Virus record (IMG/VR): IMGVR_UViG_3300032224_001305
Coordinates: 37,376 to 101,375 of that record
From: a virus
Strand: one strand, 5' to 3'
DNA: 64,000 nt
Shown here: piece by piece, positions 5,038 to 58,795 of the stretch
Layout: each line of letters begins with the position of its first letter
Numbering within the stretch: position 1 is the first letter of the stretch
The notes under the pieces: model-generated
What the model was told of the DNA's origin: nothing
Seen by the model: only the letters and a program-made list of their open reading frames with translations
Databases searched by the model: none
Position numbers and translations under genes: made by a program

Positions 5038-5122
5038 TGGTGCGAGAAGCGGGACTTGAACCCGCACGCCAAAAAGCGAAAGATTTTAAGTCTCTTGCGT
5101 CTACCGATTCCGCCATTCTCGC
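5038..5122 (-). tRNA. tRNA-Leu (TAA)
   Basis: Cloverleaf on the minus strand: acceptor GCGAGAA/TTCTCGC, D-arm with GGTAGACGC, anticodon loop CTTAAAA giving TAA (reads UUA), long class II variable arm, T-loop GGTTCAAGTCC. Encoded CCA at 5038-5040. Confidence 0.95.
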
Positions 5123-5148
5123 GAAGCATAACGACTAACCATATACAG

Positions 5149-5221
<73 letters not shown>

Positions 5222-5261
5222 TTAGCTGGTAACGCGTACGCTACCAGAGTTTTATAAAATA

Positions 5262-5858
5262 TCAACACTGCGTAGATAGTTCTGCAAATCTATCGTTGTA
5301 GTAATTCTTTAACGTTCCACGCAAGTAAGGAAAGTCTCCTAAGAGCGCTGGCAAGTGCGTACGTAGTTTCGCCCGATCGTTGAACTTACCGATGTTAGTA
5401 GGATCAACTAAGTACGGCACCTTATTCCTATCAGCGTAGTCTCGTATAGAAGACCTATTAGTGTTTAGCATAGGTCTAAACACTTTTCCGTTTACTACTG
5501 GCGTATAGGAGGGATTACCCTTAAACGCCGTTATTAAATACCACTCTATTGCGTCATCCAATGTGTGTCCAGTAACTACCTGTGCTTCAGACATCTGGTA
5601 ATACTGGCTACGCATATCGTGCCACTCTGCCTCTGTACCATATGGTAGCTTAGTAACACAGAGCGGTAATTCGTGGTCAGAACAGTAGTCTTCCACTAGA
5701 CACCGACTTAGCTTTGAGAAGTCCGACTCACCGTGCTGAAAATGTAGTACAGTTATATCTTTCCTACCCACTCTACAGAAATGGAGTAGCGCCATAGAAT
5801 CTGGACCACCAGAGCATGCAACTACAACGCGCCTATCAATATTAGGGCTGAATAACAT
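5262..5858 (-). CDS. tilS: tRNA(Ile)-lysidine synthase-like PP-loop enzyme (short TilS)
   Basis: A 198-aa protein. The start at 5858 is set by AGGAG just upstream; the longer frame would run through the neighbouring tRNA. The PP-loop ATP motif is SGGPDSMALL (about residue 15). QHGESD, GHTLDDAIEW (the HHADDQ-equivalent), FRPML..SRSSIRDYA and PYLVDPTN follow in TilS order. TilS uses ATP and lysine to turn C34 of tRNA-Ile2(CAU) into lysidine, switching it from Met/AUG to Ile/AUA. This copy has only the N-terminal catalytic domain; E. coli TilS has an extra C-terminal half. It sits within the tRNA cluster, which includes a CAU tRNA with Ile2-type identity pairs, a probable substrate. Confidence 0.85.
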   Translation of the reverse strand: MLFSPNIDRRVVVACSGGPDSMALLHFCRVGRKDITVLHFQHGESDFSKLSRCLVEDYCSDHELPLCVTKLPYGTEAEWHDMRSQYYQMSEAQVVTGHTLDDAIEWYLITAFKGNPSYTPVVNGKVFRPMLNTNRSSIRDYADRNKVPYLVDPTNIGKFNDRAKLRTHLPALLGDFPYLRGTLKNYYNDRFAELSTQC

Positions 5859-5877
5859 TTGCACTCCTATAACATAA

Positions 5878-5954
<77 letters not shown>

Positions 5955-5967
5955 ACTGAAAACAATT

Positions 5968-6044
5968 TGGTCGGAGTGAAGGGATTCGAACCCATGACCC
6001 TCTGCTCCCAAAGCAGATGCGCTACCAGACTGCGCTACACTCCG
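5968..6044 (-). tRNA. tRNA-Pro (TGG)
   Basis: Acceptor CGGAGTG/CACTCCG, D-arm TAGCGCAGTCTGGTAGCGCA, anticodon loop TTTGGGA giving TGG, T-loop GGTTCGAATCC. Encoded CCA at 5968-5970. Confidence 0.95.
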
Positions 6045-6190
6045 AAAGGCTCCTGCACAATTAAGCATCGTGCTAACGCGTGGAGTACACGACGATCTTA
6101 CTTCTGTCGCTGGACTAGGCCATACGGCGCCCGATGGGGGACGAGAGAAGAGATAGATCGCGACCCGGAGGTGAACACCCCATCTCCAGG

Positions 6191-6273
6191 TGGAAGGTGG
6201 TAGATTCGAACTACCGTAGGCTGACGCCGGCAGATTTACAGTCTGCTCCAATTGGCCACTCTGGCAACCTTCC
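6191..6273 (-). tRNA. tRNA-Tyr (GTA)
   Basis: Acceptor GGAAGGT/ACCTTCC, D-arm GCCAGAGTGGCCAATTGG, anticodon loop CTGTAAA giving GTA, long class II variable arm, T-loop AGTTCGAATCT. No encoded CCA (CCT follows). The 146 bases between this tRNA and tRNA-Pro hold no gene I can support. Confidence 0.95.
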
Positions 6274-6306
6274 ATTGGGGTGCGCTCGCAGGATGATCCT
6301 AGACCG

Positions 6307-6870
6307 CTAACTTAACTGCTGATCTACGCAATGCTCGACAGACATAAAGTCCGTATGTGCTTTGCATCTAGGCTCGTACCCTTCTTTACCTCCGACCTTA
6401 ACTTCTTCCTGCTTCTCCACCAAAGTAATTGTGTAGTAGGCGTCGTTTCCGCAGAAGCAAACCGCGGGACAAAGCTCAATCTTTGTTGCCCACGGCAGTA
6501 TCTTTGCCATCTCTGGAAAGGCGCTACCTTCTGACGAGAGCTGCAAGGAGGAGACGTATATTTGCTTTCCTTGTTTGTATAACTCAACCAGAACGTCTGA
6601 CACCCCCGGTATCATAAAGGCTTCGTCAACCGCTATTACCTCTGCTTTACCTAGATGGTCAAAGATCTCTCTACCCTCGCTGATAGGAATAGACTCCCAG
6701 CGGTTTCCGTTATGAGAAACAACAGCCTTCGTTGCATACCTAGTATCAATGCTCGGCTTGAACAGTTTAATTACCTTCTTCTGGTATTTTGCTCTTTCCA
6801 GCTGCGAAAGCATTCTTGACGTTTTACCGCCGAACATTGGGCCGGTGAAGACTACAAACTCTTGTTTCAT
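6307..6870 (-). CDS. tdk: Thymidine kinase (type II)
   Basis: A 187-aa protein with the type II thymidine kinase layout. Walker A is GPMFGGKTSRML at residues 10-21, the Mg-binding motif is VIAVDEAFMI (~80), and SSLQLSSEGSAFPEM is the lasso/substrate region. The C-terminal zinc ribbon appears as CPAVCFCGNDAYYT and YEPRCKAH. It phosphorylates thymidine to dTMP with ATP, complementing the ThyX at 57.5 kb and the ribonucleotide reductase at 30 kb. It lies inside the tRNA cluster on the same strand. Length is normal for the family. Confidence 0.95.
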   Translation of the reverse strand: MKQEFVVFTGPMFGGKTSRMLSQLERAKYQKKVIKLFKPSIDTRYATKAVVSHNGNRWESIPISEGREIFDHLGKAEVIAVDEAFMIPGVSDVLVELYKQGKQIYVSSLQLSSEGSAFPEMAKILPWATKIELCPAVCFCGNDAYYTITLVEKQEEVKVGGKEGYEPRCKAHTDFMSVEHCVDQQLS

Positions 6871-6889
6871 TTTTATACTCTAGTTGTAG

Positions 6890-6962
6890 TGCGCTCGGAG
6901 GGAATCGAACCCTCGACCAACAGATTAAAAGTCTGCTGCTCTACCGACTGAGCTACAAGCGC
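6890..6962 (-). tRNA. tRNA-Lys (TTT)
   Basis: Acceptor GCGCTTG against CGAGCGC, D-arm TAGCTCAGTCGGTAGAGCA, anticodon loop CTTTTAA giving TTT, T-loop GGTTCGATTCC. No encoded CCA. It directly precedes the tdk gene in transcription. Confidence 0.95.
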
Positions 6963-6967
6963 AGCCG

Positions 6968-7081
6968 CTATTTATTCTTAAGATACATCCCGATTAAATC
7001 TATTATGATTGATACACCGAAGCCAAACGCGGCTCCCCATACAAATCCCTCTATACCAGAAGCGCTAGCTAGATAATCCAA
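6968..7081 (-). CDS. Small single-span membrane protein (37 aa)
   Basis: The ORF is preceded by AGGAGGTAGC directly before a TTG at 7081. Starting there avoids overlap with tRNA-Gly, which a longer frame to 7162 would require. The product begins (M)DYLASASG and has one hydrophobic span (FVWGAAFGFGVSIIIDLIGMYL) and a Lys tail. Function unknown; it lies between two tRNAs. Confidence 0.5.
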   Translation of the reverse strand: MDYLASASGIEGFVWGAAFGFGVSIIIDLIGMYLKNK

Positions 7082-7109
7082 GCTACCTCCTACTAGATTA
7101 GTATCACTG

Positions 7110-7184
7110 TGGAGCGGGCGATGGGATTCGAACCCACGACGTTCAGCTTGGAAGGCTGACACTCTACCGCTGAGTTACACCCGC
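7110..7184 (-). tRNA. tRNA-Gly (TCC)
   Basis: Acceptor GCGGGTG against CGCCCGC, D-arm TAACTCAGCGGTAGAGT, anticodon loop CTTCCAA giving TCC, T-loop GGTTCGAATCC. Encoded CCA at 7110-7112. Confidence 0.95.
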
Positions 7185-7200
7185 GTCCCCATTATAGATG

Positions 7201-7289
7201 TGGCGGAGGGAGAGGGATTCGAACCCCCGGACGCTTTTAACGTCGACGGTTTTCAAGACCGCTCCATTAAACCACTCTGGCATCCCTCC
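7201..7289 (-). tRNA. tRNA-Ser (TGA)
   Basis: Acceptor GGAGGGA/TCCCTCC, anticodon loop CTTGAAA giving TGA, long class II variable arm (CGTCGACGTTAAAAGCGTCC), T-loop GGTTCGAATCC. Encoded CCA at 7201-7203. Confidence 0.95.
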
Positions 7290-7345
7290 GGCTAGTACCG
7301 CCCGTGAGGACGGCACCGTTACACCTTGTACACGTGGTACATGTG

Positions 7346-7726
7346 CTATTTCTGAAACTGCTCAGGATCGTCCGCATCGGTGTCTACCTGTAGCATAGAC
7401 GCGACCAACTGACATATTTTCATTTTAGTGTAGTGGGTTTGGTTAGACAACGGACACTTACTCAAGAAGTAGCTTGTGTGTAGAAAGCCTGATGCAGGTG
7501 CTTCGAACACGTAAGATTCTCCTAACGTTCGTCCTAAGACGTAAACCGAGTTATCGTCCGGAGCAATACACGCTATGGCCTTGTATCTAGTTCCGTCGCC
7601 TGGTTGCCATTCCACCACAACCACGTTTTCTTTAATGCAAACTTTATTCGTTCCCGGCCTGCTATATGGACTGTACGCAGCATCTAACCTGCTACTCACG
7701 TTGTCGGCATATGTCGAATCAAACAT
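7346..7726 (-). CDS. Hypothetical protein in tRNA cluster
   Basis: A 126-aa protein; ATG after GAGGTAGCC. No recognised family. It is rich in Tyr and Ser and mixed alpha/beta; central strands 'VVVVEWQPGDGTRYKAIACIAP' suggest a small beta-barrel. It lies between tRNA-Ser and a small membrane protein on the same strand. Confidence 0.7.
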   Translation of the reverse strand: MFDSTYADNVSSRLDAAYSPYSRPGTNKVCIKENVVVVEWQPGDGTRYKAIACIAPDDNSVYVLGRTLGESYVFEAPASGFLHTSYFLSKCPLSNQTHYTKMKICQLVASMLQVDTDADDPEQFQK

Positions 7727-7741
7727 GGCTACCTCAAATAA

Positions 7742-8008
7742 TTAGGTCCAATCTCTAACCACTAGAAATACACCAGTGGCTACCGTGTAACCGACGCCCT
7801 CCATTAGAGCTATCTTTACTCGATCTTGTGCACTACGTGCTTCTACTATCAATATCGTAGGAACCATAGCTATAAGCGGGTAAGTAAAGCTAATGGCCAA
7901 TCCAAGGGTGTACACCTTGTTATTGGCCGCGTACGCTGCTACGTCGAACCACATCTGCAGTAGGAACGCAGCTAAAAAAGCGGCAACGTATTTAGCTTTA
8001 TTACTCAT
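7742..8008 (-). CDS. Small multi-span membrane protein
   Basis: An 88-aa protein; start at 8008 (MSNKAKYV) chosen for the upstream CCAGGAATTTAAT, because the longer frame to 8041 runs into tRNA-Ala. Three hydrophobic segments are visible: AAFLAAFLLQMWFDVAAYA, LAISFTYPLIAMVPTILIV and VGYTVATGVFLVV. Inner-membrane location expected; function unknown. Confidence 0.65.
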   Translation of the reverse strand: MSNKAKYVAAFLAAFLLQMWFDVAAYAANNKVYTLGLAISFTYPLIAMVPTILIVEARSAQDRVKIALMEGVGYTVATGVFLVVRDWT

Positions 8009-8029
8009 ATTAAATTCCTGGTTATTTGG

Positions 8030-8105
8030 TGGTGGACTCAAGGGGGATCGAACCCCTGACCCTCGGCTTGCAAAGCCGATGCTCTCCCAGCTGAGCTATG
8101 AGCCC
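8030..8105 (-). tRNA. tRNA-Ala (TGC)
   Basis: Acceptor GGGCTCA with TGAGTCC (one G-U pair), D-arm TAGCTCAGCTGGGAGAGCA, anticodon loop TTTGCAA giving TGC, T-loop GGTTCGATCCC. Encoded CCA at 8030-8032. Confidence 0.95.
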
Positions 8106-8200
8106 TTGGTAAAAAGCGCGTGATAGCCAATATCATGGCGATATACAGAGACACTCGCTCTGCATATCGGCCACTCGGCGTGGACTTTGACTATACGCGC

Positions 8201-8275
8201 TGGTGGATGCTGAGGGATTCGAACCCCCGACTGCCTCCGTGTAAAGGAGGAACTCTACCGCTGAGTTAAGCATCC
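8201..8275 (-). tRNA. tRNA-Val (TAC)
   Basis: Acceptor GGATGCT/AGCATCC, D-arm TAACTCAGCGGTAGAGT, anticodon loop TTTACAC giving TAC, T-loop GGTTCGAATCC. Encoded CCA at 8201-8203. Confidence 0.95.
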
Positions 8276-8401
8276 TTAAGGAAAGTACCTGAGCGCCTTT
8301 ATAGGTAGCGCTTTCCTGCTGCAACAGGCATGCGTTTTACCAGTGAGCACTTGCAGGTGCTTACTCGATCTGTCGCATCTTTCTAAATCAGGTACTCCCG
8401 G

Positions 8402-8475
8402 TGGGCCCTCTGGGATTTGAACCCAGTACCCGCAGTTTATGAGACTGCTGCTCTAACCGATTGAGCTAAGGGCCC
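8402..8475 (-). tRNA. tRNA with CAT anticodon, probable tRNA-Ile2 (lysidine type)
   Basis: Acceptor GGGCCCT/AGGGCCC, D-arm TAGCTCAATCGGTTAGAGCA, anticodon loop CTCATAA giving CAT, T-loop GGTTCAAATCC; no complete CCA. It could be elongator Met, but the C4:G69 and C5:G68 acceptor pairs and overall similarity to E. coli ileX (GGCCCCTTAGCTCAG start) fit tRNA-Ile2, the TilS substrate. A TilS-like enzyme is encoded 2.5 kb away in the same cluster. Assignment as Ile2 is inference. Confidence 0.8.
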
Positions 8476-8492
8476 GTTCACCTAACTGACAG

Positions 8493-8574
8493 TGCGTGTA
8501 GAGGGACTCGAACCCCCACGTCTCTCAACAACAGAACCTAAATCTGCCGCGTCTACCAATTCCGCCATACACGC
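8493..8574 (-). tRNA. tRNA-Leu (TAG)
   Basis: Acceptor GCGTGTA/TACACGC, anticodon loop TTTAGGT giving TAG (reads CUA), long class II arm, T-loop GGTTCGAGTCC. No encoded CCA. First tRNA of the minus-strand cluster. CUA is a very common Leu codon in the neighbouring virion genes. Confidence 0.95.
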
Positions 8575-52478: not shown

Positions 52479-52718
52479 ATGAGCACCTGGGTAGTCTACC
52501 TGCTTAAGAACGACAGCAACCGTACCTACGTAGGTTGTACTACAGACGTAGACCGAAGATTGCGTCAGCATAACGGTGAGCTATCCGGAGGGGCGAAGTA
52601 CACTAAGCGTGGTAGACCCTGGACACTAGTGAAAGTGGCCGGGGCTTATCCAAATCGCTCTGAGGCGCAGAAAGCAGAATATGCTGCCAAACGGAATCGG
52701 GAGTTCAGATATGCCTAA
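52479..52718 (+). CDS. GIY-YIG endonuclease
   Basis: A 79-aa minimal GIY-YIG domain: WVVYLLKNDSNRTYVGCTTDVDRRLRQHNGELSGGAKYTKRGRPW, with the catalytic Tyr pair, Arg in RRLRQH and a late Glu (EAQKAE). Similar to the SLX1/UvrC-type single-domain nucleases. It overlaps the next gene by 8 bases. Confidence 0.9.
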   Translation: MSTWVVYLLKNDSNRTYVGCTTDVDRRLRQHNGELSGGAKYTKRGRPWTLVKVAGAYPNRSEAQKAEYAAKRNREFRYA

Positions 52719-54051
52719 GAAACAACCTGCTCCTGGTATTCCAGACCGTAGAGTAATAAAGGAAATAAAAGAGCCTGCTGGTAACTGGAAGTACGTATTC
52801 CAGAAGCACGAGGCGTTCAGGGCGGGACCGCATTTCGATATCAGATTGGCCCCGTCTGACGTGTCACACTCTTGGGCTACTCGTAGAATACCGGAGCCCG
52901 GAAAGGCTACTTTGGCCAAGCAGCAGCCTACTCACGCAGTGTCTTGGCATGACTTCGAAGGTGACATACCTAGAGGTCTTTATGGTGGCGGCAAAGTCTC
53001 CACTCATGCCAAAGGTACAGCTGATGTAGTAGAGGTCAGCAAAGACAAGGTGCTCTTTAATATCCACGAAGGACGCACTACCAAAGAAATGGTATTGCTC
53101 AGACCTAGGGCAGCTAGACCTAAGGATTGGTTATTTCTAAATAGAAGCACCGTCCCCGGTAAATACCAGATACCGCACGAGAAGCCCAAATATAAGAGCC
53201 TGCCGTATACGTTTTCATTGAGCGATACCGAAGGGCCACTCCAGCCAAAAGTAGATGGAGCGCACTCGCTACTGTTACTAGAAGGCGGTAAGCGTCCACG
53301 GGTATTCTCGTATCGAGAATCCAAGCGCGGCGATGCTCTAGAGTACACCCACAAGATACCGGGGCTTTTCTCGCAAAGAGTTCCTGCTGGTGTACCTAGA
53401 ACAGTTCTTCGCGCAGAGACTTACTTATCTGATCCGAAAGGAAAGGCCCAACCAGCCTTTAGAACAGCAGGCATCCTGAACTCAAACGTGGACAAGGCAC
53501 GCGCCGCGCAGACTAGAGATAAGTTGCGCGTGATGCCATTTGACGTTGTAGGACAAGAAAACAAGCCCTACGCTACTAGACTAGCACTCATAAAGAAGTA
53601 TACCGCAGGACTCAATGCTGTACACGAACCTCCTACAGCAATAGAAGCCGACGAAAAGCGTAAACTATTACTGGCAATAAAGAGCCGCAAGCATCCACTT
53701 ACGGCAGAAGGAATTGTCCACTGGTCACCAACAGGACCACAGAAAGCCAAGATAGTAGATGAAGCCGACGTCTACATCAGAGGCGTTCAGCCGGGACAAG
53801 GTAAATATAAAGATAGTGCTGGCGTGTTTACCTACTCCAGTACGCCACGTGGTCCGATCCTAGGTAAAGTAGGAACTGGCATATCAGATAGACTACGTAA
53901 GGACATGTGGAAGAACCGCTCATCCTATGTAGGCTCGGTAGCCAGAGTGGGTTATGAAAAGAAGTCTACTAAGGGAACGTTATTTGCCCCTAGATTGGTA
54001 GATATTCACGTAGATAAAAGCTTGCGCGGAGTTAAGGCACAGAAGCGTTGA
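52711..54051 (+). CDS. LigD-like phosphoesterase-ATP-dependent DNA ligase fusion
   Basis: A 446-aa protein; start at 52711 after GGGAG. Residues ~25-125 are a LigD 3'-phosphoesterase domain: YVFQKHEAFRAGPHFDIRLAPSDVSHSWAT...HDFEGDIPRGLYGGGKV. Residues ~165-340 are an ATP-dependent ligase nucleotidyl-transferase, with the adenylation Lys in LQPKVDGAHSLLLLEG (~K180), RAETYL (motif III-like) and AEGIVHWSP (motif IV). The C-terminus is OB-like. It heals 3' ends and seals DNA nicks, as in bacterial end joining; no polymerase domain and no Ku gene are in the window. Confidence 0.85.
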   Translation: MPKKQPAPGIPDRRVIKEIKEPAGNWKYVFQKHEAFRAGPHFDIRLAPSDVSHSWATRRIPEPGKATLAKQQPTHAVSWHDFEGDIPRGLYGGGKVSTHAKGTADVVEVSKDKVLFNIHEGRTTKEMVLLRPRAARPKDWLFLNRSTVPGKYQIPHEKPKYKSLPYTFSLSDTEGPLQPKVDGAHSLLLLEGGKRPRVFSYRESKRGDALEYTHKIPGLFSQRVPAGVPRTVLRAETYLSDPKGKAQPAFRTAGILNSNVDKARAAQTRDKLRVMPFDVVGQENKPYATRLALIKKYTAGLNAVHEPPTAIEADEKRKLLLAIKSRKHPLTAEGIVHWSPTGPQKAKIVDEADVYIRGVQPGQGKYKDSAGVFTYSSTPRGPILGKVGTGISDRLRKDMWKNRSSYVGSVARVGYEKKSTKGTLFAPRLVDIHVDKSLRGVKAQKR

Positions 54052-54340: not shown

Positions 54341-55225
54341 TTAGACGGGCAGTTGCTTCAACGTTACTTGCCGCAACACTTCGCTTTTGATGATTGGCTG
54401 AACCAGTAGCAGAACTGTTTTATTGGGCAGTTCATTAATATCAGCCGCCAGTTCTATAGTTGCCGCAAGGTCGCTAGCTTCAGTGGAACCACGTAGTAGG
54501 GACGTATCGAAACTTGGCACCAGCTTGTAAGTGTCAGTTCCAACTACCTGCTGAAAGAGTAGATATGGCGTCTTGGTAGGCTTGTCTACTACAGGAGCCG
54601 GTGCTGGAACTGGGACGGGAACAGGAGCCGCCACTACTTGCGGTTCCTCTGTCTCTTCTAGTTCCTCTGAAATATCTTGCTGTTGCGTCTCCAGTGCCTT
54701 CTTCCTAGGGTAGGGCTCTGGCAGCGATCTGAACAAGTTCTGGTCGTTCGTAAGCGCCTCCACAGCGTTGTCCAGACTACGCTTGTCGTACATTATTTTG
54801 TTGGATACTTGTCGACTGATAACAAGACTAGAACGCAGAATCGTCAGACACTTGTGGTAAGGAAACCCAAGGTACTTAATCGCATCTGCCTGACTCAAGT
54901 CAGTCGGAGCGTTTAGAGCGACTTCATCAGATTTATTAACGTCAATACCTGCGATACGCATAGCGTTCATTTTCGAGCCGAAAGCTAGAATGACCAGAGG
55001 AACTCCGCTTTTCTTAGCCAGCTCCGCAGCGAACTTAGACAGCTGATGTGACTGGTAGACCACCATGCTGGCTACCTTGTCATACGTCCCTTTCTTGGGC
55101 GGAAATGGAATACGCGACCTATACCGCACGTGTCCAACAATCTCGAACCCGAACTCCTCACCGTAACTTGCCAGTTCGTCTTTATGCTTGTCGGAACCGC
55201 CGACAAGAAACACTCTAATTGGCAT
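54341..55225 (-). CDS. RT-associated protein with DUF2325-like Rossmannoid domain
   Basis: A 294-aa protein; start MPIRVFLVGG at 55225, overlapping the RT stop by 11 bases with GGAGG upstream, so the two are translationally coupled. Residues 1-100: VFLVGGSDKHKDELASYGEEFGFEIVGHVRYR...VASMVVYQSHQLSKFAAELAKKSGVPLVIL, matching the DUF2325 pattern (GG loop, Ser-His, C-terminal strand). Residues ~200-225 are a Glu- then Pro/Val/Ala-rich linker. The C-terminal ~70 residues (PYLLFQQVVGTDTYKLVPSFD) form an unidentified beta domain. In retron terms it would be the accessory or effector protein. Confidence 0.6.
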   Translation of the reverse strand: MPIRVFLVGGSDKHKDELASYGEEFGFEIVGHVRYRSRIPFPPKKGTYDKVASMVVYQSHQLSKFAAELAKKSGVPLVILAFGSKMNAMRIAGIDVNKSDEVALNAPTDLSQADAIKYLGFPYHKCLTILRSSLVISRQVSNKIMYDKRSLDNAVEALTNDQNLFRSLPEPYPRKKALETQQQDISEELEETEEPQVVAAPVPVPVPAPAPVVDKPTKTPYLLFQQVVGTDTYKLVPSFDTSLLRGSTEASDLAATIELAADINELPNKTVLLLVQPIIKSEVLRQVTLKQLPV

Positions 55226-56525
55226 TATCACCCTCCACATAAAATCGCAGGAATAGTTTGTTTTTAGTTGCTCTATCAATAATTACACCACTGGGCCGTA
55301 AGAAACTCCGCGTAATTCTGTCAATCTCCACTTTTATCTCTTTTAGAGCAGACATATCGCGCACCTGACTCAGCTCAGAGTCCGTGAGCACGCGTTTGAT
55401 TCCAAGCCGCCTAAGTTGGCTGACTAGGCGTCGGCTATTTCTGTTGTGCATCACAGTGTCTAGCAATACCAGACCGGCCTCGGTCAATATAGCCAGAGTT
55501 ACTGCTGATGACCGCCAACCGTATTCTATAGTAGTGTTGCCGACAGTCAGACGTCTGTTCCAGTTATCGTTACATACGATGCACACACGCGGATCTATTG
55601 CCCAATTCAGTAGCGCTTTTCCTCCTTTACCTAGGAGTAATCTGGAGGGTTTTCCGTAGTTTACGTGTGCCGCTGCCAGAACAATCTCCGGAGCTACTTG
55701 TATACTAAAGTTGCTTCCGACTACTTCATGGATGCTTACTTGCTTAGGAGGTGGAGTTACCACCGGTATTCCGAACTCTATGCAAATGCGGGACAGGTTA
55801 GTGTCTGCATCCGGCGGAACCTTTAGTTTCTGCCACTCCTCAAGACCTTTGGTGGAACTCTCGTTACCCTGATGCTTGGCTGCGCGAAGCTTTCTCTTGG
55901 ACTCTCTGGTAGGGTATACCGCGTCAGAGCCCACACTCACGCCGGTAACTTTTCTATAGCCCGCCGACGCTTTGTACAAAGTGGTCTTATGCGCGGCTAG
56001 CTCAAAGCCACTTTCGATAACTTTATCACGCACTAGTTCTTTTATGCGTTCTACCAATGACCCGTCATCAAACGAAATGGTCAGGTCGTCTGCGTAACGG
56101 GTGTAGACGATTTCTGTAGAAATAAGACGCAGGCCCACAGACAAACCTGCGTCTAGCTTGATGGCCGCAATGTTTGCGATAGCAGGGCTGGTGGGAAGTC
56201 CCTGTCTAGCTACATTGTCTACAAAACATTTGTCGTAATAACTTTCGGCAAATCTATCGCACACCGCCGTGACTTTACTGCGCGTGACGGTATCGAAAAA
56301 GTCCTTTAGGTCAAAGCACAACGTGAACTGCTTACCGATGTGTGCCTTGGCGTTTGTAACCGCCGATCTAAGAGGCATGAAGCCGTGTACGGTGTTATTG
56401 CACAACGAATACTGAAGTTTGTTCAGTTCTGGTAGTAACACCTTTAGATCTTTCTTCTCAGCTTCGGTAGGCACGCATACGTGCCGGTAACTTCCGTTTC
56501 TCTTTGGGATTGCGACTATTCTCAT
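55215..56525 (-). CDS. Retron-type reverse transcriptase with C-terminal extension
   Basis: A 436-aa protein; ATG 56525 after AGGTG. Residues 1-~230 are an RT. They include HGFMPLRSAVTNAKAH (retron region X, NAxxH), CFDLKDFFDTVT (motif A, catalytic Asp), VARQGLPTSPAIANI (motif B, QG-x3-SP as in retrons and group II, not the SQ of DGRs), YTRYADDLTIS (YADD), and YRKVTGVSV (region Y, VTG). Ordinary retron RTs are ~310-330 aa; the remaining ~200 residues here (from ~240) form an extra domain I do not recognise. It makes cDNA from a structured RNA; a ~950-nt structured non-coding region lies directly upstream. Confidence 0.88.
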   Translation of the reverse strand: MRIVAIPKRNGSYRHVCVPTEAEKKDLKVLLPELNKLQYSLCNNTVHGFMPLRSAVTNAKAHIGKQFTLCFDLKDFFDTVTRSKVTAVCDRFAESYYDKCFVDNVARQGLPTSPAIANIAAIKLDAGLSVGLRLISTEIVYTRYADDLTISFDDGSLVERIKELVRDKVIESGFELAAHKTTLYKASAGYRKVTGVSVGSDAVYPTRESKRKLRAAKHQGNESSTKGLEEWQKLKVPPDADTNLSRICIEFGIPVVTPPPKQVSIHEVVGSNFSIQVAPEIVLAAAHVNYGKPSRLLLGKGGKALLNWAIDPRVCIVCNDNWNRRLTVGNTTIEYGWRSSAVTLAILTEAGLVLLDTVMHNRNSRRLVSQLRRLGIKRVLTDSELSQVRDMSALKEIKVEIDRITRSFLRPSGVIIDRATKNKLFLRFYVEGDNAN

Positions 56526-56549
56526 GGTAGGCACCTAAGAAGAAAAGGG

Positions 56550-56580
56550 AATGCACCGCCGTATAGATACCCATACGGCG
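56550..56580 (-). terminator. Hairpin between ncRNA and RT gene
   Basis: GCCGTAT/ATACGGC stem at about 56559-56580 in the RT leader; the minus-strand exit is GGTGCATTCCCTTTTCTTC. It could partially terminate ncRNA transcription ahead of the RT gene. Confidence 0.45.
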
Positions 56581-56582
56581 AT

Positions 56583-56777
56583 GCACCCACACATTGGCTA
56601 TAGTGCAAAAGAGTGCGTTTATTTATTTAAAGCTCGGTAGGAGCTTTAAATAAATAATTGAGCAACCTTGTAGTATTACGTCAGCCACTTCTGTACACAC
56701 GGCGAAACACCGTGGGTGCTGCTGACGTTGTTCAGCCACTAAAGCTTTCACAGATCGCTACCTAGACGCTTTCTGTG
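56583..56777 (-). ncRNA. ncRNA unit 4 (adjacent to RT), with possible a1/a2 repeat
   Basis: CACAGA/TCTGTG stem (56749-56754, 56772-56777) with CTACCTAG in the loop, TTCAGCC at 56731, closing stem ACGTCAGC/GCTGACGT (56678, 56721) enclosing CGAAACAC. Long hairpin TTATTTATTTAAAGCTC, loop GGTAG, at 56619-56657. An 8-bp inverted repeat, GCACCCAC (56583-56590) with GTGGGTGC (56712-56719), encloses the long hairpin, as a1/a2 repeats do in retrons. Confidence 0.5.
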
Positions 56778-56830
56778 CACAGTACATATACCGTGTTTCA
56801 CGTTTTATTTGCAGGACTATACGCTAAAAA

Positions 56831-57066
56831 CAAGTACGCATGGATGTCCATACGTACTTGCTTGCCATCGGCGCAAATGATGAGTTTAAGATGTCTGGGT
56901 GTAGTAATAATTTTCTCAAAATTATTACGTAACCCAGGACATATTAAAGTACACCATAGTATTCCTAGTAAAGACTTTTTGTAGACATATCGAAGCAACA
57001 TGACTGCTCTTTACCTATTCAGCCGCCGATACGGCCTATCTACAAGCCTACCTAGGGACTTGTAGA
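56831..57066 (-). ncRNA. ncRNA unit 3
   Basis: TCTACAAG/CTTGTAGA stem (57039-57046, 57059-57066) with CTACCTAG in the loop. Small hairpin GCCG-ata-CGGC at 57025-57035, TTCAGCC at 57018, closing stem GTAAAG/CTTTAC (56968, 57009) enclosing CGAAGCAA. Long hairpins: CTGGGT-gta-GTAATAATTTT with its complement at 56895-56937, and CAAGTACG.ATGG with its complement at 56831-56860. Confidence 0.55.
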
Positions 57067-57104
57067 ATTCAGTGTAGATGTGCATTACCGCACACCCGCG
57101 TTTG

Positions 57105-57271
57105 GTGCGAATAAGTTCTGGATCATGTCACAGCGGGATGTTAAGCCCGTGGTGACATGATCTCGAACTGTTTGTGAGATATTACTGCCCATTTAGTAAC
57201 GTGTCGAAGCAACTACGTTTAGGACCAGTATTCGCAATAGCCACCAATCACTTTATTACCCAGACATAAAG
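57105..57271 (-). ncRNA. ncRNA unit 2 (diverged)
   Basis: CTTTAT/ATAAAG stem (57251-57256, 57266-57271) with loop TACCCAGAC, a variant of the CTACCTAGAC block. AATAGCC at 57236 stands for TTCAGCC. Closing stem TGCGAATA/TATTCGCA plus CTGG/CCAG encloses CGAAGCA at 57205 and the long hairpin GATCATGTCAC/GTGACATGATC (57121-57162). Confidence 0.45.
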
Positions 57272-57298
57272 CACATGACCAGCGCGAAGATCGTTTAA

Positions 57299-57487
57299 TC
57301 CTGGAAAGTAGTGTAGGATCAGTAGCGGCTTTAGCTGCGGATGATCCGGAACGGTTTCCAGGAATCAACTAGAACACTACCTATGTCACTGACGCTAAAT
57401 CCCAGCCGAAACAGTGTGGACGTCAGTAACTTTTTCAGCCGCTGGTGCAGCCTACGCATAAGATCTACCTAGATAACCTTACAGCGC
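57299..57487 (-). ncRNA. ncRNA unit 1 (5'-most)
   Basis: Loop block CTACCTAG (plus strand) at 57465 in a stem TAAG/CTTA plus CGC/GCG. Small hairpin GCTG-gtg-CAGC at 57441-57451, TTCAGCC at 57434, closing stem ACTGACG/CGTCAGT (57388-57394, 57421-57427) enclosing CGAAACAG. Long hairpin TCCTGGAAA/TTTCCAGGA at 57299-57363 has an inner GGATCA/TGATCC stem. Confidence 0.55.
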
Positions 57488-57523
57488 ACAGTACTTTTAT
57501 CACATTTTTTCTGTGTTTTGCAC

Positions 57524-58315
57524 TCAGTAATCTACAAGGGCTCGTAACTGAACCCAGCCTTTGTAGTTACGTTGTATATCGGGCGTGTCTCCGTGTACTG
57601 CTGGACTATACGGAGTAGCCTGGTGCTCTAGCGGTGACCAGTGCTTAACTACTTCCATATTACGGCCTTTCTTTAGGTCGGTCGGGTAGTTCAGTTCTGG
57701 TAATAAAAACGAAACCCGACCACATCTAGCAGCGCTAACGTAGGCGTCGTTTAGTTGGTTGTCAGTTCTTTCTTCTTCAGGTACTAGCGGTAGATGCCAA
57801 CCGCCAACATCTACTTCTTTTGGCGTACTGGCTGTTAGGGCCTCATACATACTTCTAGCCAACATAGCCGTCTCTGACTGCACGCCTACCCCAAACGCAC
57901 GTACGTCAAAGAAATTGAACGTCTCTGTAGCAGACAAGATTACTACCACATGCGCAAACGGCTCTAATATTCTGTTTAATACTTCCTTATGCAGGTTCAG
58001 TTCTAACCCTTTTTGGTGCTGTGCCAGCGCGTATTCCATACACTCTAGCCACCACGCAGTCGCCGTTTCCGACGATACTTCTTTGTGTGCCTTCATCCCT
58101 GGTTCGTTCTCTCCCCAGAACATAGGCATGGCTGGGTTCTCTCTAACTAGTCGTGCTAGTTTAGCCGCAGGTATTGCGCGAGACGAGGATGTGTTCCTAG
58201 AAAAGGCTCTGTGCGTGAGCACGTGTGCGTGAATGAAACGCGGGTAAATCAACCTAAAGGTAGTTAGCCGGTGCCCACTATTTGTACTATCTGTAATCAC
58301 TTCAGCGCTTATCAT
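57524..58315 (-). CDS. thyX: ThyX-like flavin-dependent thymidylate synthase
   Basis: A 263-aa protein from ATG 58315 (GGAGAATTAT upstream). The ThyX motif appears as THRAFSRNTSSSRAIPAAKL (the R-H-R-x7-S family motif in variant form). HKEVLNRILEPFAHVVVILSATETFNFFDVR is the FAD/dUMP helix region, and HWSPLEHQATP is present near the C-terminus. It methylates dUMP to dTMP with FAD and methylene-THF. It is transcribed toward the ncRNA/RT locus and completes the phage dTTP pathway with tdk and the class II reductase. Confidence 0.85.
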   Translation of the reverse strand: MISAEVITDSTNSGHRLTTFRLIYPRFIHAHVLTHRAFSRNTSSSRAIPAAKLARLVRENPAMPMFWGENEPGMKAHKEVSSETATAWWLECMEYALAQHQKGLELNLHKEVLNRILEPFAHVVVILSATETFNFFDVRAFGVGVQSETAMLARSMYEALTASTPKEVDVGGWHLPLVPEEERTDNQLNDAYVSAARCGRVSFLLPELNYPTDLKKGRNMEVVKHWSPLEHQATPYSPAVHGDTPDIQRNYKGWVQLRALVDY

Positions 58316-58782
58316 ATAATTCTCCACCATTCTGGTTCGGCAGTCCGCCACGTGGCGAACAGCACTTTCTCGTTTATATAATACTTTCGATAAGAAATAA
58401 CTGGGTCGTCTGTTTTGTATTGGTCTGGCATAGCCAGTGCAAAAGGCGTGAGACCGTTATCAGGGCACATCGCTGGCACATTTTCACATAGGCGCACTAT
58501 GTTAGCGGCTGTATGTACTCCGCCGTACCGCCTTGTAAACTCCTTGCCTATTTCATCGGCGTGTTCCCATAACCATGCGCAGTTATCCTTAGACTCCATC
58601 GCCCATAACGTACATTTATGTTTAGGGTGCGCAGTCTTGTAGAGTCGCTGTTCTGTTGCTCCGTAATGTCTGCCCACAGTGCTAAGAATTTGTGCCGATT
58701 CAAGCACCATTTTTACTACGTGTTTGTCACATAGATACCTTGCCGCCTGCCTAGGGTCGGCGTCTAGGACAAAGATATTCAT
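58312..58782 (-). CDS. Conserved phage protein ('DADPRQAARYLCDKHVVKM')
   Basis: A 156-aa protein. Motifs NIFVLDADPRQAARYLCDKHVVKMVLESAQILS, HPKHKCTLWAMESKDNCAWLWEHADEIGKEFTRRYG, TPFALAMPDQYK and ISYRKYYINEK define a widespread phage family with conserved Asp, His and Tyr, function unknown. It overlaps thyX by 4 bases. Confidence 0.75.
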   Translation of the reverse strand: MNIFVLDADPRQAARYLCDKHVVKMVLESAQILSTVGRHYGATEQRLYKTAHPKHKCTLWAMESKDNCAWLWEHADEIGKEFTRRYGGVHTAANIVRLCENVPAMCPDNGLTPFALAMPDQYKTDDPVISYRKYYINEKVLFATWRTAEPEWWRII

Positions 58783-58795
58783 GCTGGTATTCACC

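Follow-up and report, generated by a model that had tools for sequence, protein, structure and literature searches.

A phage retron with a probable array of four tandem non-coding RNA units upstream of a single reverse transcriptase

Retrons are usually described as having one reverse transcriptase (RT), one non-coding RNA (ncRNA) and one multicopy single-stranded DNA (msDNA). Among characterized retrons Ec86 (Eco1, type II-A) follows this plan, with a single ncRNA and clear a1/a2. Several retron ncRNAs per RT occur in engineered retron arrays, which are man-made for multi-site editing (Gonzalez-Delgado et al. 2024, as cited in PMC12548924). Here, we describe a locus of the virus record IMGVR_UViG_3300032224_001305, a 101-kb phage contig of 101,375 bases, of which positions 37376-101375 were analysed (64,000 bases, hereafter the window; coordinates are those of the window). 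On the minus strand, a thyX-like gene (57524-58351) is followed by a 981-base gene-free stretch (56543-57523) and an RT gene (ATG 56525 to 55215). We consider it probable that this locus is a phage retron in which one RT works with four ncRNA units in tandem, each likely containing an msd template. With four units the locus departs from the usual, though not strictly defining, arrangement of one ncRNA per RT, and a natural multi-template array of this kind would be a new form of a known system, the retron.

The window locus shares with Ec86 the RT family and fold, a P1 hairpin with an AGGT loop, and an msr hairpin with a UUU loop and U.G/G-C closing pairs, which is followed by a long msd hairpin. 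It departs from Ec86 in having four units, in none of which a1/a2 could be resolved; in addition, its msr hairpins sit inside a further closing helix, and the RT is extended at the C-terminus. It resembles the engineered arrays, as far as these are described in the citing source, in the number of ncRNAs per RT, and differs from them in being natural and viral and in having hairpins that differ between units. No natural retron array was found in the open-access literature searched, outside of which most subscription-journal papers lie; the retrons described there have one ncRNA, apart from the cited engineered arrays.

The four units and their msr-type hairpins

A first-pass annotation of the window sequence had reported about 980 bases without a gene directly upstream of the RT gene, and the two longest open reading frames (ORFs) inside this stretch indeed encode only 67-69 aa, both overlapping hairpins. 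The annotation had also proposed four minus-strand units spaced by 208, 209 and 290 bases, with which the positions of the loop motifs (57472, 57264, 57055 and 56765) agree; the third spacing is 290 instead of 209 because an extra hairpin, M3b, is located there. The array comprises the following parts.

56543-57523, minus strand: the complete array, four msr-msd-like RNA units in tandem, flanked by thyX and the RT gene
57386-57481, minus strand: unit 1 core, with P1 at 57481-57459 (loop CTAGGTAG), GGCTGAA, and P3 at 57429-57386 (msr-type tip ACTG-TTT-CGGC)
57297-57364, minus strand: unit 1 long hairpin M1, putative msd (z -5.0)
57183-57271, minus strand: unit 2 core, the most diverged, with P1 at 57271-57251 (loop TCTGGGTA) and P3 at 57230-57183 (tip GTTG-CTT-CGAC)
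57114-57169, minus strand: unit 2 long hairpin M2, putative msd (z -7.0)
56968-57065, minus strand: unit 3 core, with P1 at 57065-57040 (loop CTAGGTAG), a small hairpin GCCG-TAT-CGGC, GGCTGAA, and P3 at 57014-56968 (tip GTTG-CTT-CGAT)
56891-56942, minus strand: unit 3 long hairpin M3a, putative msd (z -6.3)
56829-56863, minus strand: extra hairpin M3b, then TTTTT, possibly terminator-like (z -7.9)
56678-56777, minus strand: unit 4 core, with P1 at 56777-56749 (loop CTAGGTAG), GGCTGAA, and P3 at 56728-56678 (tip CACGGTG-TTT-CGCCGTG)
56619-56657, minus strand: unit 4 long hairpin M4, putative msd (z -10.4)
56549-56588, minus strand: hairpin M5, intrinsic-terminator-like, with an 18-bp stem, then CCTTTTCTTC, directly before the RT gene

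Three short blocks had been proposed to recur in order in all units. This applies to the TG(T/C)TTCG block (4/4 units), while exact copies of CTAGGTAG and GGCTGAA are confined to units 1, 3 and 4, and the divergent unit 2 contains TCTGGGTA and GGCTATT instead. Both M3b and M5 precede U-rich tails and may thus represent terminators.

Viewed as structure, the TTCG block forms a hairpin in which a G-C pair closes an NUU triloop and a U.G pair lies beneath, and on this predicted pairing the block corresponds to the apical part of the msr hairpin that retron RTs recognize. The Ec86 ncRNA carries the same hairpin, GGATGTTG-TTT-CGGCATCC, the sequence of which was confirmed against 48 E. coli genomes, and it is through region Y that the Ec86 RT is reported to bind its msr, at a stem of eight base pairs capped by a UUU loop (PMC6868368). 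An msr-type hairpin is present in 4/4 window units, and 0/2000 dinucleotide shuffles reach three or more. Across the RT clade, msr hairpins within a closing helix occur 17 times per 101 kb beside the RT, 2 times per 144 kb farther away and 3 times per 244 kb on the opposite strand. Retrons outside the window RT clade also bear the msr hairpin, usually in one copy. By analogy of sequence and fold, the window msr hairpins are predicted to be recognized by the adjacent RT.

The units are also recognizable beyond these hairpins. In leave-one-out sequence profile searches of both strands of the 101-kb genome, the held-out units 1, 3 and 4 were each the best non-training match (E 0.003, 0.003 and 0.005), and unit 2 was missed over the whole genome. 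When units 1, 3 and 4 were used to build a covariance model, its best non-training match was unit 2 at the exact position, with an E value of 0.16 that is weak alone. A minus-strand decoy hairpin at 7734-7668 shows weak resemblance to the unit profile (E 0.6-1). The first-pass annotation had further stated that the stems differ in sequence and keep their pairing, and the summed four-unit lengths of the P1 and P3-closing helices were indeed matched by 0/4000 flank shuffles; taken singly, the unit 1 P1 and unit 2 P3 helices are weak in this test. Its observation of a separate long hairpin in each unit is likewise borne out, with z scores of -5 to -10 for M1, M2, M3a and M4 as well as M3b and M5, and the minus strand of the whole stretch folds with z = -12.6. 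Units were found at this locus alone within the genome, and comparison of the msd hairpins with other parts of the genome revealed no homology, with only one 13-base array word recurring, which is below chance expectation. At gathering scores, Rfam models identified only tRNAs in the window, all distant from the array, and Rfam searches of the array stretch at E<=5 returned chance-level matches only. An exact-motif scan of viral contigs (CTAGGTAG..GGCTGAA..TTCG) yielded 16 loci, none near a related RT, and these were taken as chance.

The reverse transcriptase and its lineage

The gene downstream of the array encodes the following protein.

55215-56525, minus strand: retron reverse transcriptase of 436 aa, with an RT domain at about residues 1-235 containing NAKAH, YADD and VTG, and a C-terminal extension of ~200 aa

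The annotation of this gene as a retron-type RT is supported by motifs, profiles and predicted fold. The protein matches Pfam RVT_1 (6.6e-25) and 52 PADLOC models, and among the matches listed all are retron RTs; it scores nearly alike against retron RT models of several types and fits no single PADLOC type. In an alignment with Ec86, NAKAH occupies region X (defined as NAXXH in retrons; PMC6868368) and VTG occupies region Y. Ec86 is also the best sequence match in the PDB (8e-20). The AlphaFold model has a predicted local distance difference test (pLDDT) score mostly >90 over residues 1-230 and low values over the C-terminal 200 residues, and its 13 best PDB matches in Foldseek are retron complexes, Ec86 first, with structures of diversity-generating retroelement (DGR), group II intron and defence-associated reverse transcriptase (DRT) proteins ranking below retrons. 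Judged by sequence and modelled fold, the window RT is thus a retron RT.

Scans of viral and genome contigs recovered ~30 closer relatives. In the RT tree, 26 rows including the window RT lie on one side of a branch and 46 other retron RTs on the other (Shimodaira-Hasegawa-like approximate likelihood ratio test, SH-aLRT, 91), which places the window RT in an unclassified lineage of retron RTs with mostly viral and some bacterial members. The nearest relative, from a Syntrophomonadaceae metagenome-assembled genome (MAG; L143), is 50% identical over the RT domain and has one msr hairpin <300 nt upstream; a Helicobacteraceae MAG (L144) encodes an RT with 41% identity over the RT domain, and the Helicobacteraceae loci also have one msr hairpin <300 bases upstream. 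Both L143 and L144 thus combine a related RT with the same P3/msr hairpin as the window, but contain one unit each.

No clear family was found for the C-terminal extension of the window RT by profile matches or predicted fold. Related RTs (L143, L118, L038, L042 and L152) have a common C-terminal domain of ~190 aa with a WTSC (GWTSCM) motif, for which neither a Pfam family nor a significant fold match was identified (best matches GNAT acetyltransferases, E>0.05). The same-clade RTs of the Helicobacteraceae MAGs L144 and L156 have a long C-terminal part, which is PEGA-like in L144 (sub-threshold match).

Arrays beside other retron reverse transcriptases and the genomic setting

A search for related arrays beside homologous RTs, as the first-pass annotation had suggested, identified arrays upstream of both related and unrelated viral retron RTs. 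Within the window RT clade, L120, a close neighbour of the window RT in the tree (with the fork between them drawn open), carries two units, and L045/L124 contain two 70-base blocks that are 98.6% identical, with a different long hairpin after each. Furthermore, four related phages (L039, L040, L125 and L043) have 3-4 hairpins with differing stems, a constant loop CCCAACCCC and a constant flank GCGACCACTCCC.

L039, 1124-1500: hairpin array
L040, 1248-1500: hairpin array
L125, 1243-1500: hairpin array
L043, 2672-2985: hairpin array

The consensus fold of this group contains 11 pairs with changes on both sides, and covariation is supported by this fold together with the pairing tests in the window. 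Two ORFs separate the array from the RT in three of the four phages. Pairing of the flank GCGACCACTCCC with a single shared copy upstream is also possible. On sequence grounds, these phages may combine one msr with several msd parts.

Outside the window clade, viral retron RTs are preceded by three msr-type hairpins in L061 (2390-2880) and by four passing the test in L081 (1900-2720). In L063 (IMGVR_UViG_3300037247_001602), the interval 1316-2500, which precedes a type XIII-like retron RT, holds four msr hairpins as well as a tandem series of twelve GGAAAG(G)TAG/GGAAAGCCTAG elements whose hairpins differ. L102 (IMGVR_UViG_3300031950_000001) resembles the window in having four tandem ncRNA units (1855-2854; 159-188 bases each) upstream of one retron-type RT. 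In contrast to the window, its RT belongs to a different branch, its units are near-repeats of each other, and every unit is closed by its own 12-17 bp a1/a2-like terminal inverted repeat, so that each resembles a complete retron ncRNA. The RTs of all four loci match retron RT models. At least two strict msr hairpins were found upstream of the RT in 3/74 viral and 0/62 cellular loci, and at least four strong hairpins in 5/87 viral and 0/77 cellular loci; these counts are indicative, as the loci were sampled for the resemblance of their RTs to that of the window, and in GC-rich coding DNA (e.g., L121) hairpins can be counted falsely.

The array is hosted by a bacterial virus (phage). The record beyond the window contains terminase-, capsid- and tail-like ORFs, and a terminase query retrieves other viral records. 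No known phages with DNA similarity to this phage were found, and one of the seven phage relatives identified by terminase encodes an RT. Downstream of the RT gene lies a possible operon partner.

54341-55279, minus strand: next ORF, about 300 aa, with a sub-threshold DUF2325 match

This DUF2325-like ORF was dismissed as a conserved effector, with no homologue located near the related RTs examined. The window also contains a minus-strand cluster of twelve tRNA genes (5038-8574), an ORF (52681-54051) that contains a LigD 3'-phosphoesterase domain and weakly matches a DNA-ligase OB domain, and a pyrimidine-dimer DNA glycosylase-like ORF (58312-58794) that adjoins the thyX-like gene.

Alternative readings and possible role

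Several observations weigh against a four-unit retron. The array is known here from its sequence and predicted structure. The a1/a2 pairing is a defining part of retrons, and in no window unit do the flanks pair better than shuffles. Unit 2 is diverged, its assignment resting mainly on structure. Most clade members have one recognizable unit or none, so that arrays are not universal, and in the L039 group the hairpins are mostly located behind a single msr-like hairpin, a layout differing from that of the window. The window-unit covariance model gave no credible match on related RT loci; since it misses the related RNAs, clade-wide homology rests on the short P3/msr motif.

It is conceivable, though in our view unlikely, that only one unit, for example unit 4 as the nearest to the RT, is a working retron ncRNA and that the others are decaying duplicates. 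The loss of the exact CTAGGTAG and GGCTGAA blocks in unit 2 would fit such decay, as would the single unit at many related RTs. However, although the units differ at most positions, P1, the msr hairpin and a strong long hairpin are retained in 4/4, a conservation that would not survive decay, and further viral RT lineages also have arrays, with 2 to 12 elements. Still less probable is one long structured RNA, a scaffold or regulator in the manner of giant RNAs, the hairpins of which are not templates. The strong global fold is what such an RNA would display, and an undescribed family would escape Rfam, but each unit carries a retron RT recognition hairpin beside a retron RT, the L102 units are individually closed by inverted repeats, and the array stretch lacks a match to GOLLD/ROOL or any other Rfam family. 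The giant RNAs GOLLD/ROOL, which the first-pass annotation had singled out for comparison, were looked for and rejected in the absence of an Rfam covariance-model match.

We attach hardly any credence to the suggestion that the RT is of a different class (DGR, group II intron or DRT) and that the array is its ncRNA. It is generally known that phage RTs are often DGR RTs and that DRTs use ncRNAs too, whereas for the window RT the retron motifs, profiles and fold rank first, with DGR, group II and DRT structures lower. A group II intron was rejected on the lack of an Rfam intron RNA match in the window and on an RT fold nearer to retrons, and a DGR on an RT nearer to retrons and on the recurrence of no array word other than the 13-base one mentioned above.

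The several-template retron proposed in the first-pass annotation is therefore supported by the retron RT, by the msr hairpin and long hairpin of each unit and by comparable viral arrays. In such a four-unit retron, the array would be transcribed and then cut or terminated into units, potentially at the terminator-like M3b and M5. Each msr hairpin would recruit the RT, and the long hairpin next to it would be copied from a putative branch G whose 2'-OH serves as primer, yielding up to four different msDNAs per phage. We infer that several msDNAs may in fact be made. More tentatively, the system might function as a defence or superinfection-exclusion retron, with the C-terminal extension of the RT or the next ORF as effector, or it might supply several DNA decoys against host defences.

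A broader proposition, for and against which we find the evidence evenly poised, is that retron arrays are a recurring viral form. Phages from several separate RT lineages would have, for each RT, a tandem series of 2 to 12 elements of msr-msd or msd-like type, with constant recognition parts and flanks and diversifying template hairpins, providing an msDNA repertoire (sensors or decoys) not seen in cellular retrons. If true, one RT would yield several DNAs, as a spacer array serves one Cas machine, and such arrays would offer natural designs for multiplexed in-cell DNA synthesis. Comparison of the hairpins diversified by phages would allow a test of what the msd sequence senses, and the arrays would show what retrons do for phages, not against them.
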